Assembly (NCBI RefSeq): GCF_000969985.1
Contig: NZ_CP009526.1
Span: forward strand, 2,666,001-2,730,000
Origin: Methanosarcina barkeri str. Wiesmoor
GTDB taxonomy: Archaea; Halobacteriota; Methanosarcinia; Methanosarcinales; Methanosarcinaceae
Reading direction: 5' to 3'
Length of the DNA: 64,000 bases
Below the pieces are notes generated by a model. That model was not told the origin of the DNA. It saw nothing but the letters and a program-made list of their open reading frames with translations, and did not search any database. Position numbers and translations under genes: made by a program. The first letter of the stretch is position 1, and each line of letters opens with the position of its first letter. Positions 7,644 to 34,990 of the stretch are shown piece by piece.

Positions 7644-8570
7644 ATGTTTGAGGGTGTAACAAAAATTGGCTGGAGGCAGAGACAGGATATGGACAGTACA
7701 AAACACAAGATAGATACTTCATTCCTGACCCAGCTCGACAGGTATGCCCTCCCGATCAGGAACAGGGTCACAGCCGTTCACTCAGGTAGCCATCTCTCAA
7801 CAAAGAAAGGATCCGGGCTTGACCTTGTAGACCATAGAAAATACAACCCGGGTGACTCATTAAAAAAAATCGACTGGAACCTCTATGCCCGTACTGAAAA
7901 GCTGTATATACGCAGGTTTGAAGAAGACAAAAACCTGAACATGGTAATACTGCTTGATGCCAGCACCAGCATGCTCATTCCTGAGAATAACCCTAACAAA
8001 TTCGAATATGCATCAACTGTAGCTATAGGAATCTCTTACATCGTAATGCGATACAACGACCAGTATATGATTGCAACCTTTGCAGAGAATGTAGACTATA
8101 CTAAAGCCCTCAAAGGAAGGGAAGAATTTCTTCGGACCATTGACAACCTCTCCCGAATCTCAGTCAATGGAAAGACAAAGCTTTCAGACTGTGCAGATTC
8201 CATATATCCCAAAATAAAGTCAAAATCAATGATCTTAGTAATTTCAGATTTTCTGGATGATCCTGATTCTATCCGATATGCTGTCCACAGGTTGTACAGG
8301 CATGAGCTCGTGCTTATACATATCTATGACGAAACCGAGAGAAATCTGCCTGAAACCGTAGACGGAACAGTCAAATTTATTGACGGTGAGACAAACGAAG
8401 AGTTCAGCATCTCAGTGGGTCAGGAATTCAGGAAGGAATATGCAGCCGAATTCGAGAAACATATGGCTGAGCTGGATAAAATCGCACACGATTTTAAAAT
8501 TCCCTATTTCAAAATCAGTATTGATAATCGGCCTATTGACACCGTGCTTACGATCATAGGTAAAGGGTGA
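7644..8570 (+). CDS. DUF58 family protein
   Basis: A 308-residue soluble protein. It carries the DUF58 signature YNPGDSLKKIDWNLYART at about residues 70-87, followed by an RRFEEDKN stretch. A VWA-like core begins with LLDASTSM at about 110-117, which is a DxSxS metal-site motif. Known of the family: DUF58 proteins nearly always sit beside MoxR and VWA proteins. A strong GGAGG lies 9 nt upstream of the ATG. The 3' end overlaps the alternative GTG start of the next gene, so translation is probably coupled. It is likely a MoxR partner acting on cell-envelope or stress functions. Confidence 0.9.
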   Translation: MFEGVTKIGWRQRQDMDSTKHKIDTSFLTQLDRYALPIRNRVTAVHSGSHLSTKKGSGLDLVDHRKYNPGDSLKKIDWNLYARTEKLYIRRFEEDKNLNMVILLDASTSMLIPENNPNKFEYASTVAIGISYIVMRYNDQYMIATFAENVDYTKALKGREEFLRTIDNLSRISVNGKTKLSDCADSIYPKIKSKSMILVISDFLDDPDSIRYAVHRLYRHELVLIHIYDETERNLPETVDGTVKFIDGETNEEFSISVGQEFRKEYAAEFEKHMAELDKIAHDFKIPYFKISIDNRPIDTVLTIIGKG

Positions 8571-8578
8571 CTCTGCCT

Positions 8579-10582
8579 ATGGATTACGAATTTCCCCCGG
8601 GTCTGGCTGCGTTTGCAGGTGTAATTCCCCTGATTATTGTTTACGTACTTAAACCCCGCCCAAAACTGATAATTCTTCCTTCTTTGATGTTTGTTCGGAA
8701 AATCAGCAGGAATGCATTCGATTCCAGGCGTAAGCTCAGTAAAAAAATAACAGACCCACTCTTCTTTTTACAGTTACTTGCACTGATTCTCCTGGCGTTT
8801 GCCATTGCAGGGCCTCTACTCGAGAATCTTACGGAGGATTCGGAAAGAGTTGTGATTATTATAGATTCATCTGCCAGCATGGCTGTACCTGACAGGATAG
8901 AGGCTGCAAAATCCATAGCAATAGAAAGCCTGGGCAAGGAAAACACGATTATCGCTGCCGAAAGCGTGCCTGTGGTACTTGCAAAAGCAATAGAAGCAAC
9001 CGATGCTGAAGAACTAATCAATAATCTGGAAGCCAGGGATACTTCTGGCGAGATTCCTGAAGCTATTCTGACCGTTGTAAACGACAAAGGAAATCAAAAA
9101 TCAAAAATTGTAGTCATCTCTGACTTTGAAAACTGGGCAGGCAAGGCCCCTGAAACATATATCAAAATCGCCAGGGCGAAGAATATGGAACTTGAGTTCA
9201 GGCAGGTCGGCAAAGCAGCTTCCAATTATGCAATTATAGACGGCTATCTCAAAGACCGAAATGACGGGACCTATGAGTACACCTGTACTGTCAAAAATTT
9301 TAATAACGAAAGTGTGAAGCTCGATGTGCAGCTGGAAAGCAAATCAGGCCTGATTTCCACCCAAAAAATAAACAAGCCTGTATCGCTTGGGAAATTCGGG
9401 ACCCAGCAGATAAAATTCTCCAGTATTCCTCAGGGTATGTCTACCGTGGAAATTCTCAATAAGGATTCAGTACCCTGTGATAATATTGCCTGGATTTCTA
9501 TCCCTGAAATCAAGCCGAAACAAATGCTGATATTAACAGACCTTGATCCAACAGGTCTTGACTCAACAGAGGACCTCGATCCAACAGAAGACCTCGATCC
9601 AACAGAAAACCTCGACCCAACAGAAGACCTTGACCCGGCAATAAGTAAATCTCCTGTGATTACGGCCTTGTCCCTTATGCCTGGCCTTACGGTCGATGTA
9701 AAGAACGAACTTCCGCACGAACATCTGGCAGATGTTGAAAAATATGACACTATTGAAAAATATGATACTATTCTCATAGATTGTGAGCATAAACCCCTTC
9801 CAGCATCCACCATAAAGAAAGTCGTTTCTTATGCGCAAAAAGGGAAAGACCTGATAGTTATAGGAAACGGATGCCTGTATAATTCTTCGGAAATGCATGA
9901 GTTATATCCTGTTCTTCCTGTAGAGATCAACTCAATTAAAGAACACTCCAGCCATACGATTGAGACCGCAGGGAGCGGGACACAGGTTTTTGAGGAAGTT
10001 TCATTCAACGAAGTTTATACTCGAAAATACCTGTCTGCGACTCCGCGTGAAAACGCCCTGGTGCTTGCCGAACTCAAAGGAGCAGGGCCTGTAATCTGTA
10101 CCTGGAAGATTAACAACGGGACAGCAACTTATGTGGGGATTAGCGATACTACTGGAAATGACGCGTGGAACAATTTTCCTACGGTTCCCACGTATCCGGT
10201 ATTCTGGGCAAAACTTCTCAAATACTTATGGGGAATCGGGGACATCACTGAAACCAATGTAAATACAGGCAGATACGAGGCGTTTGACCAGAATGTCAGA
10301 GTCAAAACTCCTGGGGAAACGATCAGCAGTAAGTTCGTTTACTACGATAAATGCGGGCTCTATGAGCTGAACCAGAAAACCGTTGCAGCTAATCTCTATG
10401 ATTCCACTGAGTCAAATACCTTTACTGAGAATCGATTAAATCTAACAGGTGAGAGCAAAGATATACAGAAAGAAGACCTGTATACAAAATCACCCGACAA
10501 ATTCCGAAAATACCTGATTTATACCCTGCTGCTCCTTCTTATTCTTGAGAACATGCTCATGTTAAGGAGGAGAATAATATGA
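8579..10582 (+). CDS. BatA-like VWA membrane protein
   Basis: About 667 residues. The N-terminus has the BatA form: a short span, then KPRPKLIILPSLMFV, a second span at about 65-85, and then a VWA domain beginning VVIIIDSSASMAV, with a complete DxSxS motif. The middle resembles a glutamine-amidotransferase-like fold. A last span, LIYTLLLLLILENMLM, precedes Arg-Arg-Arg-Ile-Ile. I prefer ATG 8579, which has GGTGA 8 nt upstream. A GTG at 8567 overlapping the DUF58 stop is the alternative. An acidic DPTE(D/N)L repeat occupies about residues 320-350 and is not a normal part of the family. The ATG of the next gene overlaps the stop (ATGA). Confidence 0.8.
   Translation: MDYEFPPGLAAFAGVIPLIIVYVLKPRPKLIILPSLMFVRKISRNAFDSRRKLSKKITDPLFFLQLLALILLAFAIAGPLLENLTEDSERVVIIIDSSASMAVPDRIEAAKSIAIESLGKENTIIAAESVPVVLAKAIEATDAEELINNLEARDTSGEIPEAILTVVNDKGNQKSKIVVISDFENWAGKAPETYIKIARAKNMELEFRQVGKAASNYAIIDGYLKDRNDGTYEYTCTVKNFNNESVKLDVQLESKSGLISTQKINKPVSLGKFGTQQIKFSSIPQGMSTVEILNKDSVPCDNIAWISIPEIKPKQMLILTDLDPTGLDSTEDLDPTEDLDPTENLDPTEDLDPAISKSPVITALSLMPGLTVDVKNELPHEHLADVEKYDTIEKYDTILIDCEHKPLPASTIKKVVSYAQKGKDLIVIGNGCLYNSSEMHELYPVLPVEINSIKEHSSHTIETAGSGTQVFEEVSFNEVYTRKYLSATPRENALVLAELKGAGPVICTWKINNGTATYVGISDTTGNDAWNNFPTVPTYPVFWAKLLKYLWGIGDITETNVNTGRYEAFDQNVRVKTPGETISSKFVYYDKCGLYELNQKTVAANLYDSTESNTFTENRLNLTGESKDIQKEDLYTKSPDKFRKYLIYTLLLLLILENMLMLRRRII
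9538..9640 (+). repeat. In-frame 18-bp coding repeat (DPTEDL)
   Basis: About five imperfect copies of an 18-bp unit of the type GACCTCGATCCAACAGAA encode DLDPTE repeats inside the VWA protein. The unit length is a multiple of three, so the reading frame survives. A smaller duplication, EKYDTI-EKYDTI, follows at about 9738-9775. Confidence 0.8.
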
Positions 10583-10653
10583 GCTTTGATTTTATGAGCT
10601 TTGATTTTATGAGCTTTGATTTTATGAGCTTTGATTTTATGAGCTTTGGTTTT
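10579..10653 (+). repeat. 15-bp tandem repeat containing the start codon
   Basis: Five units of ATGAGCTTTGATTTT (the last one diverged to GGTTTT) encode MSFDF five times at the very N-terminus. Each unit brings its own ATG in the same frame. Only the first copy has the GGAGGAG ribosome site. Confidence 0.92.
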
Positions 10654-13212
10654 CTATATAAATCCGAGTTGCTTCTCCTGTTGCCTCTTGCGGTCTTCTT
10701 GCTTTTCGGGTTGAGAAAAAAAGCCAGTAAAAAACATCTGTTTTTTCATGTACTTGTCGCATTCCTCCTGATTCTGGCACTTGCAGCTCCATATTCCGCA
10801 GAGATAACTTCTCCCAAAACCAATCAATCCAAGATAACCATAATTTCGGATGAAACCGCAAGTATGGAACTGCTTCAGAAAGGGGCTCTGCAGAATATAT
10901 CCAAGAAACTTAGCGGCAAGGTTCCTGTTACGGTTACAAGCATTTCAGGCTCGCAGACTTCGCTTGGGGATGCTATTCTGCAGCAGGCATCCCCTGAAAA
11001 TTATGTACTTATAGTTTCGGACGGACAGAGCAACTCAGGGACTTCAATTGAAGACGCACTTTCCTACTGCTACAAAAATGGCTTTCCTGTAGCTGCAATT
11101 ATTCCAGATACAGTTAGAGAAGACCTCAGCGTAGAGATTGAAGGAGAAAACGAGCTTGTAATCGGAAATGAGGCTCCTTTCAAGGTTCATGTCCGGAAAT
11201 CAACTGAAAATGAAATGAAGTATGAACTGAGAGTTACGGTTGACCACAAGCAGATGATGGAAAAGAAAGTTACTCAGACCGAGAGGATAGAAAGTTTTGA
11301 TTTCAATCATACATTCGATACACTGGGGCCGCATACAGTAAAAGCAACCCTTCATCCCGCAAGCATAAACGTTAAAGGCCTGGATTATTTTGAGAATAAT
11401 AACCAGTACATGAAAAGCGTATACGTAACGCCAAAACCGAAAGTGCTTTTTGTGACCGATGAACCTGATTCGCCTCTGGCAGCTATACTTAATGAGGTTT
11501 ATGAAGTACATCCTGCAAGGCCATCTGGTTCCCTTTCATCTGGTTCCCTTAACGGCATGGATGCAGTTATAATCGACAATCAAGCAGTATCGACGATTTC
11601 AAGTTCGGAAGTCAAAGTCCTCAGGAAGTATATTATTAATGGCGGCGGCATGGTAGTGGTCGGAGGAGATGCTTCTTTTGACTATCCTGCCGGAAACACA
11701 TATCAAAATACGCAATTCGAGGAACTTCTGCCTGTTACATCCAGCCCTTCAAACTGGAGAGGAGGCAGGAATATTGTCCTGATGCTTGATGTCTCGCCGA
11801 GCACACTGCAAAGTAACAAAATTGGAGGGCGTGTTTTAGATGACATACTCTCCAATGCTATTGTGCTTCTTGAAAACGAGCACCTGAAAGATGCGAGAGT
11901 GGATGTTATCACATTCGGGAGCAAAGGACAGGATATTACAAACGGGTTTGTGGACATGTCCAAAGAATCAAACAGAGTGTGGCTTGAAGGCGAGATCCGC
12001 AAAATTACCCCCTCGGGAGACTCGACATCGCTTGAACGAGGAATGTTAACTGCACGCGGCCTGCTTAGAGGACAGAACAGCAGTGCAGATGCTGAAATTA
12101 TAATCGTTTCTGATGGCGGGGTAGGCAATAAATATGAGGGTGATAAAACGTTTGAACAGGCAGTAAGTTGTGCAGATTCGCTTCTGGAAGAGGAAATAGG
12201 CATCCATTTTGTTCATATCCACTCCCCAAACACCGAGCGTCAGGTCAATCCCAATGGCAATTATTACGCTTATCTCCTGATGAATAAAATCGGTTTACCG
12301 AAAAATTATAACAGGATTGAACCGGGACAGCGGGTAAATGTCAGCTTTTCTGAGAGATCGGATGAGTCTGAGGAGATAGAAGACGATTATTCCAGCGGCG
12401 CACTGATAGTCTATGACCCCAGGCATTTTATTACAAAGGAAATCTCCGAAATACCACATGATCTTCTGGGCTACAATGAAGTAAGCCCCAAGCCTGAAGC
12501 AAACCGTCTCGTAACAACCAGGCTGGGCAAACCCGTAATCACAGTCTGGAGGCTTGGCCTTGGCCGAGTTGCAGCTATTACAACTGACAATGGATATGGT
12601 CATGGAATTCCCTGGGCTCCTTCCCTGTACTCAGGAAACGACAGCCTGGTGATTACAAGAACCTTGAACTGGGCAGTTGCAGATATCGAGATGTACGAGA
12701 GCCTCCAGTTAAAAATTCCTGACCTTAAAATAAATCAGCAAGGCAGGGTCCTTATTACGACAAGGGAAGAAGGGGTTCCTGAGCTTTATTTTGACAAAAA
12801 ACCTATGGAAATAACACCTATCGGAAACAATATGTACGAGTCATATGTCACCCCAACCACCTTTGGACTCCATAAAATCTCCGAAAAACCTGCTGGCGTA
12901 AATCAGACTGAGGAATTTATTCCTGAAAGCTTCGGTATCGAAAACATCTCCTGGAGACCTGCCTCTGCAAACTGCCCTGATGAGTATATGTATGTTGGCG
13001 AAAACCCATTATTTCGAACAGCCCTGCTCGAAAATGGAGGAAAAATTTATACAGCAGCTGATATTTATTCTCGGATAACAACTGATTCCATAACCCGTAC
13101 CGAAAAGAAAGCCATGACAAAAATAATGTATACTAAATATATCCTTATGCTTGCCTTCTTCATATATCTGATATATACGGTATATCATACCTATAACACC
13201 CGTATGAAGTAA
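10579..13212 (+). CDS. VWA-domain membrane protein, last gene of the operon
   Basis: An 877-residue protein with two N-terminal spans (about 25-45 and 55-75) and a long exported region containing a GATase1-like segment. A VWA domain at about 400-560 has the metal-site motif DVSPS at the end of strand 1 and the later motif VSDGG. A final span at about 850-870 leaves a short charged tail. GGAGGAG lies 6 nt before the first ATG, and the start overlaps the preceding stop as ATGA. The first 75 bases are a repeat of ATGAGCTTTGATTTT, so five consecutive repeats each supply an ATG. With MoxR, DUF58 and the BatA-like protein it probably forms a MoxR-dependent envelope complex. Confidence 0.82.
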   Translation: MSFDFMSFDFMSFDFMSFDFMSFGFLYKSELLLLLPLAVFLLFGLRKKASKKHLFFHVLVAFLLILALAAPYSAEITSPKTNQSKITIISDETASMELLQKGALQNISKKLSGKVPVTVTSISGSQTSLGDAILQQASPENYVLIVSDGQSNSGTSIEDALSYCYKNGFPVAAIIPDTVREDLSVEIEGENELVIGNEAPFKVHVRKSTENEMKYELRVTVDHKQMMEKKVTQTERIESFDFNHTFDTLGPHTVKATLHPASINVKGLDYFENNNQYMKSVYVTPKPKVLFVTDEPDSPLAAILNEVYEVHPARPSGSLSSGSLNGMDAVIIDNQAVSTISSSEVKVLRKYIINGGGMVVVGGDASFDYPAGNTYQNTQFEELLPVTSSPSNWRGGRNIVLMLDVSPSTLQSNKIGGRVLDDILSNAIVLLENEHLKDARVDVITFGSKGQDITNGFVDMSKESNRVWLEGEIRKITPSGDSTSLERGMLTARGLLRGQNSSADAEIIIVSDGGVGNKYEGDKTFEQAVSCADSLLEEEIGIHFVHIHSPNTERQVNPNGNYYAYLLMNKIGLPKNYNRIEPGQRVNVSFSERSDESEEIEDDYSSGALIVYDPRHFITKEISEIPHDLLGYNEVSPKPEANRLVTTRLGKPVITVWRLGLGRVAAITTDNGYGHGIPWAPSLYSGNDSLVITRTLNWAVADIEMYESLQLKIPDLKINQQGRVLITTREEGVPELYFDKKPMEITPIGNNMYESYVTPTTFGLHKISEKPAGVNQTEEFIPESFGIENISWRPASANCPDEYMYVGENPLFRTALLENGGKIYTAADIYSRITTDSITRTEKKAMTKIMYTKYILMLAFFIYLIYTVYHTYNTRMK

Positions 13213-13501
13213 GCTGCAATTCAGGTTGATTTTCATCTACATAAGGTCAATTTCATCTGCAATTACTTTATCTTTATTCTCTTATTCTGGAACACTCTTT
13301 CATTTTGAAACGAGATTCTCTTTTATCTTACTCAAAATTTTTATATACTCTATAGTGTAATTTATGAGATTATATTACCATTATATTTTAATGAAATAAT
13401 CATTTGTTTAATGAACTACAGTTAGAAAGGTACACAAAAAAAAAGAAATAAAATAAGATTAACTGTTAAAAATATTATATACGATAACTGCGTAGTATAA
13501 A

Positions 13502-13705
13502 CTGCGTTCTCATCCCTTTAACACCCCACTAGCAAAGAGCACCTACTCCAGAGCATTACTCCACAATAAAGGGATAGAAAGAGAAACTCGCAACGCATGA
13601 GTCAAGTACCTCAATACCTCTTCCCCAACTACAACAAAGTGAGTATCTTGAATACCATTCGGAACTCCTAGGTTTTTCGGATGAGAGCGCTACCTCATTT
13701 TTAAA
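13502..13705 (+). ncRNA. Structured RNA candidate, copy 1
   Basis: No open frame. A TATA-like box (AATATTATATA at 13471-13481) lies about 25 nt before the inferred start. The RNA would begin with GCGTTCTCATCC (13504-13515), which pairs over 12 bp (one G-U) with GGATGAGAGCGC (13679-13690). A U-run follows at 13698-13702. An inner hairpin, CTCGCAACGCATGAG, is shared with copy 2. The sequence is related to 14261-14463 at the same length, with covarying terminal-stem pairs. I do not recognise the family. Confidence 0.65.
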
Positions 13706-13719
13706 AAGTTTTTAAAACT

Positions 13720-13800
13720 CGAGTCCCATCTCGGGAGGACGGTACCCTTTTCGCTCACTTCATTCTCTCAAGAAGGCGGAATTATAATGAAGATACTGAG
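13720..13800. repeat. Dispersed intergenic repeat, copy 1 (partner at 34042)
   Basis: An 81-bp segment starts with a self-complementary CGAGTCCC-(A/G)-TCTCGGGAGGA, passes through CCCTTTTCGCT, and ends GAATTATAATGAAGATACTGAG. It recurs at 34042-34124 with only small changes. It is noncoding and lies just after the first RNA candidate. Confidence 0.8.
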
Positions 13801-13910
13801 TTGTACCAGGAAGGATGATTATAGTACAGAGTTTTTCGTGATCTTTTTCCTTCTGTGGTTTTTTCTTTATTTAAGATCAGTTAGTCAACTTAATAATTGA
13901 CTAAAGTTAG

Positions 13911-14001
13911 TTTAAACTCTATCCTCTTAAACTCTATTCTCTTAAGCTCTATTCTCTTAAACTCTATTCATTTAAACTCTATTCTCTTAAACTCTATTCT
14001 T
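13911..14001. repeat. 15-bp tandem repeat
   Basis: Six units of about TTAAACTCTATTCTC with minor changes. It is noncoding and lies between the two RNA candidates. Confidence 0.85.
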
Positions 14002-14108
14002 TGCTACTGTATCTCAGGGAAATCAGCTTTTTAGAATGAGTTGACTTTTTCTTGTTAACGTACGGGTAATAATTATTAGTATTTATACCCAGTTATATCA
14101 AGTACCAT

Positions 14109-14178
14109 AGTTTAATGCTATAAGGTTAAACCATTAAAGAAAAAGTTTAATGCTATAAGGTTAAACCATTAAAGAAAA
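14109..14178. repeat. 35-bp perfect direct duplication
   Basis: Two adjoining copies of a unit that begins AGTTTAATGCTATAAGG and ends CATTAAAGAAAA. It lies between the 15-bp array and the second RNA candidate. Confidence 0.9.
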
Positions 14179-14260
14179 ATTAGATCTTTATTCCAACAAA
14201 ATAGAGTTAAAGTAATACTATTCATTAAAAATATTATATAGAGTGAGAGCATAGTATAAC

Positions 14261-14463
14261 TTGCGTTCTCATCTACAAGACCACATAGCAAGACCTATTC
14301 CACAAGAAATACTTCAACGCCTACTCCGAAAAATCTACTCTAAAAGTGAAGAGATAAGAAGCTCGCAACCCGTGAGTCCAATAATAAACCTCTTCCTGAA
14401 CAAGACCTAATAAGTGCCGTTCGGAACTTCCAGAATTTTTCAGGTGGGAACGCAGCTCTTTTC
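14261..14463 (+). ncRNA. Structured RNA candidate, copy 2
   Basis: Paralogue of the RNA at 13502. Its TATA-like box (AATATTATATA at 14230-14240) is again about 25 nt before the inferred start. TGCGTTCTCATCT (14262-14274) pairs over 13 bp, allowing G-U, with AGGTGGGAACGCA (14442-14454). A CTCTTTTCT run follows. The hairpin CTCGCAACCCGTGAG and the motifs CCTCTTCC and TTCGGAACT are shared with copy 1. Where the 3' strand differs from copy 1, pairing is kept. The intervening sequence is diverged, so this is an old duplication under structural constraint. Confidence 0.65.
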
Positions 14464-14720
14464 TAAATAAAACTGTTAAGGGTTTCAAGCCTGACAGAAA
14501 ATCCATGCTGAAGTTAATGCGCTCGCTTGTAATTATTTTTCCAAATATACGGCAAAAAATATAAAAAAATAGTATATACAAAACTGGTTACAAAACTGGT
14601 TATAAAACTGGTAGACTGAAAAAAATTCTAAAAAACCTGATAAGATAATTGCTTTAATTTACCCGAAATAAGGCTTAAGCCTATCAATAAAGAAGTAAAA
14701 TATAAAAAAATGAAATAGAG

Positions 14721-25386: not shown

Positions 25387-25682
25387 ATGATTTCACACCA
25401 TTAATTTGTTATTGTAAGGGTCCGGAAAGTAGATGGACTATTTTATAGTCTGTCCTCTAGGAGTTTCTCGAATGTACTTTTTGGGATATGCCTATTTTCC
25501 GTAAAATTTATTGTAAAATTTATTGTAAAATTTACTATATCTTGTCGAGTAAGTCAGGTGGATTGCTCCTTCTTTTTCCCCAGGAACCGTAGTTGAAAGT
25601 TTCCATTCATACGGCTCGAGTGTTTTCAAACCCTTTCTGTATCAGGCATCAGTTATTTCATAACTGGTTTTGTGGTTCTAGG

Positions 25683-34918: not shown

Positions 34919-34990
34919 AGCCAAGGTCCGGATTTGAACCAGGAGTGAATCGCTCTGCTGGCGATTGCGTAACCGCTCTGCCACCTTGGC
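34919..34990 (-). tRNA. tRNA-Cys (GCA)
   Basis: 72 nt on the minus strand. The acceptor stem GCCAAGG pairs with CCTTGGC, the discriminator is U73 (a cysteine identity base), and the T arm contains GGTTCAAATCC. The anticodon stem is ATCGC/GCGAT with the seven-base loop CAGCAGA, giving anticodon GCA. Position 33 is A where nearly all tRNAs have U. A minus-strand TATA-like box, TTTATATATTTTATATG, lies upstream (about 35010-35026). CCA is not encoded. Methanogens commonly charge tRNA-Cys through phosphoserine (SepRS/SepCysS); those genes are not in this window. Confidence 0.93.

Follow-up and report, generated by a model that had tools for sequence, protein, structure and literature searches.

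Species of Methanosarcina are model methanogens with working genetics, but studies have so far dealt with very few of their small RNAs. Elsewhere, LhrC of Listeria and the RsaE-type RNAs are CU-rich small RNAs encoded in multiple copies, Y RNAs of the Ro ribonucleoprotein combine a closing stem formed from both ends with a large pyrimidine-rich loop and a U-tail, and snR30/U17 and U3 are rRNA-pairing assembly RNAs. Within the genus, sRNA162 and sRNA171 of M. mazei are 191 nt long, restricted to Methanosarcina, equipped with their own promoter and terminator, and present in M. mazei as a duplicated pair (PMC3510493). sRNA162, which is reported as single-copy in M. acetivorans and M. barkeri, contains three stem-loops and a 39-nt single-stranded linker that pairs with targets, and it masks a ribosome-binding site (PMC3510493).

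The RNA family described here was identified in a window of 64,000 nucleotides from M. barkeri str. Wiesmoor. It resembles sRNA162/sRNA171 as an ncRNA of similar length that is restricted to Methanosarcina (plus one sister genus, as described below) and has its own promoter and terminator. It does not appear to be sRNA162, from which it is set apart, at the level of the available descriptions, by copy number and reported structure: instead of a single copy, five are found in genome G015 (presumed M. acetivorans) and four in the genome studied here, and instead of three stem-loops, the family-wide consensus comprises one long closing stem only.

The intervals 13502–13691 (copy A) and 14261–14454 (copy B), both on the forward strand, were confirmed as two standalone predicted ncRNA genes of ~190 nt, in agreement with the positions proposed in the earlier note, with U-rich tails extending to ~13705 and ~14464. 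A covariance model (R1), built from 35 copies, matched copy A with 164.9 bits (E 1.3e-29; G000:C2:2679502-2679691) and copy B with 146.2 bits (E 6.7e-26; G000:C2:2680261-2680454). The same TATA-like box precedes each copy, as had been claimed, at an equal spacing of 22 nt ahead of the stem; the promoter of copy A (13466–13501) reads TTAAAAATAT-TATATA (13476–13481)-N12-AGTATA (13494–13499) and that of copy B (14225–14260) TTAAAAATAT-TATATA (14235–14240)-N12-AGTATA (14253–14258). A closing stem of 12–13 bp, termed P1, was likewise found in both copies. In copy A its arms lie at 13503–13514 (TGCGTTCTCATC; located from stem pairing over 139 copies) and 13680–13690 (GATGAGAGCGC), and in copy B at 14262–14273 and 14443–14454 (GGTGGGAACGCA), the latter three located from folding and alignment. 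The T-run noted behind the stem corresponds to U-rich tails at 13692–13705 and 14455–14464, which are conserved in the downstream profile of the copies and are likely terminators. The motifs CCTCTTCC and TTCGGAACT are common to both copies, and the 139-copy alignment places conserved blocks at 13658–13672 in copy A (TTCGGAACTCCTAGG) and at 14389–14396 (CCTCTTCC) and 14420–14434 (TTCGGAACTTCCAGA) in copy B. Between the two genes, TTAAACTCTATTCTC is repeated imperfectly in a run at ~13917–14001, and a ~35-nt direct repeat (AAGTTTAATGCTATAAGGTTAAACCATTAAAGAAAAA) lies immediately upstream of copy B at ~14110–14180.

With copy A as blastn query, two further loci were recovered in its own genome (E down to 3e-20); the further matches comprise 273102–273355 and a promoter-only match at 2383558, with a promoter match at copy B as well. 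Homologues were present in all 24 other Methanosarcina genomes searched by blastn and in none of 15 genomes from other families of the order. The covariance-model search of Methanosarcinales that the earlier note had proposed listed 148 places in 35 of the 112 genomes of Methanosarcinaceae, comprising all 31 Methanosarcina genomes and all four genomes of one sister genus; across the 186 genomes of the order the same 35 were positive, corresponding to two of 27 genera, and no match was obtained in the other 25. The weakest four or five of the 148 matches look spurious or truncated, and 139 distinct copies were retained. Methanosarcina genomes carry one to ten copies, usually three to six, with low counts mostly in fragmented assemblies. 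When the genomes of 84,980 species were screened for an exact promoter–stem pattern, 41 stretches matched, every one under the title of a Methanosarcina or a euryarchaeal MAG; the pattern had zero matches in viral contigs. The bog MAG G011 (loci L137–L146) has about ten diverged copies, and in several of them the U-tail is weak or missing, possibly reflecting lineage-specific expansion or decay.

No Rfam family matched either RNA at the gathering threshold, the best sub-threshold matches having E > 4. The literature searched contained no description of multicopy or structured Methanosarcina RNAs of this kind; a 2009 dRNA-seq list for M. mazei may already contain single members. These data provide good support for a real, genus-wide and previously unnamed ncRNA family. 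The proposal that the two stretches are tandem paralogues of a structured RNA not described before is borne out by the homologues with a covarying closing stem, the conserved promoter and tail, and the lack of an Rfam family.

The copies occupy several conserved loci: one behind a DUF58/BatA/VWA operon (in the window and in genomes of the M. acetivorans and M. mazei types), one adjoining genes for a CobW-type GTPase and a radical-SAM protein, and one adjoining an FAD oxidoreductase gene. Because the neighbouring genes are unrelated between loci, a role in cis is unlikely and the copies would act in trans. In a tree of the family, the 17 rows orthologous to copy A and the orthologues of copy B (within a group of 24 rows) form separate, well-supported clades across species, each retained in many species and not homogenised; the two window copies thus belong to separate ancient clades. 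This indicates that the paralogues have stayed distinct, and their roles are probably not exactly identical.

The 12-bp closing stem is real. P1 is paired in 1639 of 1668 cells over the 139 copies, a value never reached in 500 column shuffles (mean 1631), and two-sided, pairing-keeping changes, such as GC to AT or TA to CG, occur at five of its 12 pairs, so that the covariation suggested as a check is present. The P1 sequence is also strongly conserved, beyond what pairing requires. Stem differences between the two window copies had been read as preserving pairing; within the window these amount to one-sided G-U/A-U wobbles only, and two-sided compensation is seen only across relatives. Folding of the single window copies was modestly better than that of shuffled sequence (z = -2.06 and -1.84), and therefore the structural case rests on comparison across copies.

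Besides P1, RNAalifold found no family-wide helix and proposed differing inner helices for the individual clades. A candidate second helix, AAGRGAT/ATCYCTT, with variants AAAAGAT/ATCTTTT and AAGACAT/ATGTCTT, is found in many copies outside clade B, with weak per-copy significance. The internal hairpin described earlier, CTCGCAAC..TGAG, forms in some clades, including copy A itself (CTCGCAACGCATGAG, 13587–13601), but does not pair in several others; CTCTCAACCCACAAG in M. mazei-type copies, for example, cannot pair. The hairpin and the further inner helices were consequently rejected as family-wide features, being clade-limited. The designation as a structured RNA holds for the closing stem but not for an elaborate fold: since only P1 is structured across the family, the rest of the RNA is better called an exposed loop with conserved blocks.

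The loop between the P1 arms consists of 38% A, 26% C, 24% T and 12% G, and is predicted to be largely unpaired in several copies. Over the 139 copies it contains the conserved blocks AACACCCCACTAGC, CCTACTCC, ACTCGCAACCC, TACCTCAAACCTCTTCCC and TTCGGAACTTCCAGG, between which lie variable, A-rich linkers. The motifs CCTAYTCC, ACCTC and CTTCC exceed their frequency in dinucleotide shuffles 3- to 60-fold, whereas CCTCC, the anti-Shine-Dalgarno core, is depleted (0.05 per RNA versus 0.36 in shuffles). The RNAs range from 151 to 230 nt, and this variation in length, together with the lack of a conserved reading frame, indicates that they are not mRNAs; a small protein-coding gene was rejected on the basis of non-conserved frames and indels of any length. 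One copy (L028:2016-2286, reverse strand) has a 269-nt core in which the loop domain is duplicated internally, suggesting that the family tolerates loop expansion while the stem stays.

The region between about -50 and the start is also conserved among the aligned copies, 135 of 138 of which have TATATA-N12-WGTATR at a constant spacing; the strict pattern occurs in the 4.9-Mb genome only at this ncRNA family. By sequence, the ncRNA promoter resembles that of the rRNA operons, whose tandem promoters share the same layout, reading TATATACAAGAAATGYCTTGTATR at the level of the genus and TATATACAATAAATGCGTTGTATA in the M. barkeri Wiesmoor genome. Sites within three mismatches of TATATACAATAAATGCGTTGTATA number five in the latter genome, all belonging to rRNA or this family; three in G008, all this family; five in G016, where two are ncRNA copies and the remaining three are promoters of the rRNA type (Rfam confirmed 16S at L231 and L234); and none in G015 and G045. 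Scored with an rRNA-promoter weight matrix, the median ncRNA promoter ranks with the highest-scoring 0.4% among 4020 TATA-like sites of the background, a statistic to be read with the caveat that the ncRNA copies are related to each other. An ACAAG..CTTGT palindrome is present in the rRNA promoters and absent from those of the ncRNAs. The tRNA-Cys gene in the window (34919–34990, reverse strand) has an upstream TATA and a GCTGTATA element resembling the rRNA/ncRNA promoter element, and the orthologous tRNA-Cys in L117 also has a TATA plus a GCTGTATA-like element. The element was rejected as a general tRNA feature, being found upstream of two of 15 tRNA genes examined, both tRNA-Cys; at the other genome matches of the promoter pattern there was no tRNA or known RNA.

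From the computed features, namely the family, its stem, loop composition, conserved blocks and promoter similarity, we infer a function for the ncRNA and somewhat favour a model in which it is a genus-specific, multicopy, trans-acting RNA that is co-regulated with ribosomes and base-pairs through its loop with purine-rich mRNA sites or with 16S rRNA. Each gene would form its own transcription unit: transcription from an rRNA-like promoter is predicted to begin at the opening bases of P1 and to stop at a U-tract just past this stem. The 12-bp stem would join the two ends, probably protecting and stabilizing them, and the G-poor A/C/U loop, presumably single-stranded for the most part, would display four to five conserved pyrimidine-rich blocks. 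These blocks could base-pair with a purine-rich target RNA, candidate classes being ribosome-binding regions of mRNAs or 16S rRNA around 598–657, and the common promoter type would let the RNA's effect scale with ribosome synthesis. A search for base-pairing targets against the rRNA operon and a 128-kb background returned no clearly significant candidate. Presence in every Methanosarcina genome searched, combined with the rRNA promoter type, makes the family a prime candidate for a core role in regulation or in connection with the ribosome.

Different readings of the loop have to be weighed. Regulation of mRNAs in the manner of LhrC/RsaE, with repeated CU-rich loop motifs blocking the purine-rich ribosome-binding regions of several mRNAs, is a tentative possibility that would account for the multicopy and partly tandem genes, the CCTAYTCC/ACCTC motifs repeated far above shuffles and a loop left mostly unpaired in several copies, and M. 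mazei sRNA162 masks such a site (PMC3510493). The depletion of CCTCC, however, is evidence against a simple block of ribosome-binding sites, and, unlike LhrC/RsaE, the present RNAs are archaeal, lack a stem-loop array and have an rRNA-like promoter. The conserved blocks could equally be protein-binding sites. A scaffold or sponge whose blocks titrate an RNA-binding protein is unlikely overall: repeated, conserved single-stranded motifs in several copies recall the known CsrB-type sponges, but the blocks differ from each other with no one exact site repeated, and no partner protein is linked at the copy loci. The end-to-end closing stem, large pyrimidine-rich loop and U-tail are also those of Y RNAs, but a TROVE/Ro-partnered RNA was rejected, as the TROVE protein is found in none of the 31 Methanosarcina genomes, and neither RNA gave a Y RNA match in Rfam. 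A non-functional dispersed repeat or mobile palindrome would fit the several copies per genome and the one internally duplicated copy; the conservation of loci, promoter and tail, the orthologous clades that span many species, the compensatory stem changes and the lack of an exact promoter–stem match among viral contigs make this explanation highly improbable, and it was rejected.

A partnership with 16S rRNA was considered separately. The block TACCTCAAACCTCTTCCC is predicted to pair with 16S 601–619 over 15 bp (-24.5 kcal/mol), which is its best site in the 128-kb background except for the RNA's own complement, and the only one-mismatch complements of TACCTCAAACCTCTTCCC genome-wide lie in the three 16S genes. 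In copy A, a loop stretch at 13559–13627, including the conserved TACCTC..ACCTCTTCCC (13607–13625), contains collinear blocks complementary to 16S ~596–657 (duplex -53.0 kcal/mol), for which controls gave marginal significance. Within the rRNA operon, duplexes formed by the whole loop reach their greatest average strength at 16S ~595–660; pairing with the rRNA leader was weaker and was rejected. A held-out 5' part of the loop mildly favours the next 16S stretch (ranks 2–38 of 506 windows), whereas the part 3' of the block has no preference. With the choice of window corrected for by local shuffles, the observed value of -43.2 compares with shuffled maxima of up to -42.0 in 12 draws, and it was reached by one of 60 shuffled operons with the full consensus and by 10 of 60 with conserved positions only. 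The loop is collinearly complementary to 16S ~598–657, its best place in the rRNA operon, at marginal significance after correction (p about 0.02–0.17), and the pairing is regarded as a lead only.

As an explanation of the family, pairing of the loop with helix 22–23 sequence (~598–657), as an assembly chaperone or ribosome-silencing RNA functionally analogous to eukaryotic snR30/U17-type RNAs but without their boxes, appears rather unlikely. The promoter type common to rRNA and ncRNA speaks for it together with the duplex data; several diverged copies, however, favour windows other than 16S ~600, and the 16S site is identical in both genera, so that compensatory change cannot appear there to back the pairing. 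If the lead holds, the RNA would resemble snR30/U17 and U3 in small-subunit central-domain pairing and in co-expression with rRNA. It differs from them in that no C/D or H/ACA snoRNA family matched the two RNAs at the Rfam gathering threshold, a sub-threshold snoZ5 match being located between the two copies, and in the marginal significance of the pairing. The full version, in which an archaeal RNA made together with rRNA from rRNA-type promoters pairs with the 16S central domain over ~60 nt (helices 22–23) and so chaperones or silences the small subunit, is doubtful. The complementarity offers a concrete and cheaply testable lead to a non-box rRNA-pairing RNA, a kind that we do not know from archaea.

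Elsewhere in the window, in-frame short DNA-level repeats (LDPTEDLDPTED...; MSFDFMSFDFMSFDF...) are present in the genes for the BatA-like and VWA proteins (8567–13212), and a match to RF00029 (Group II intron domain) at 25553–25619 on the reverse strand, with 41.1 bits, exceeds the gathering score.
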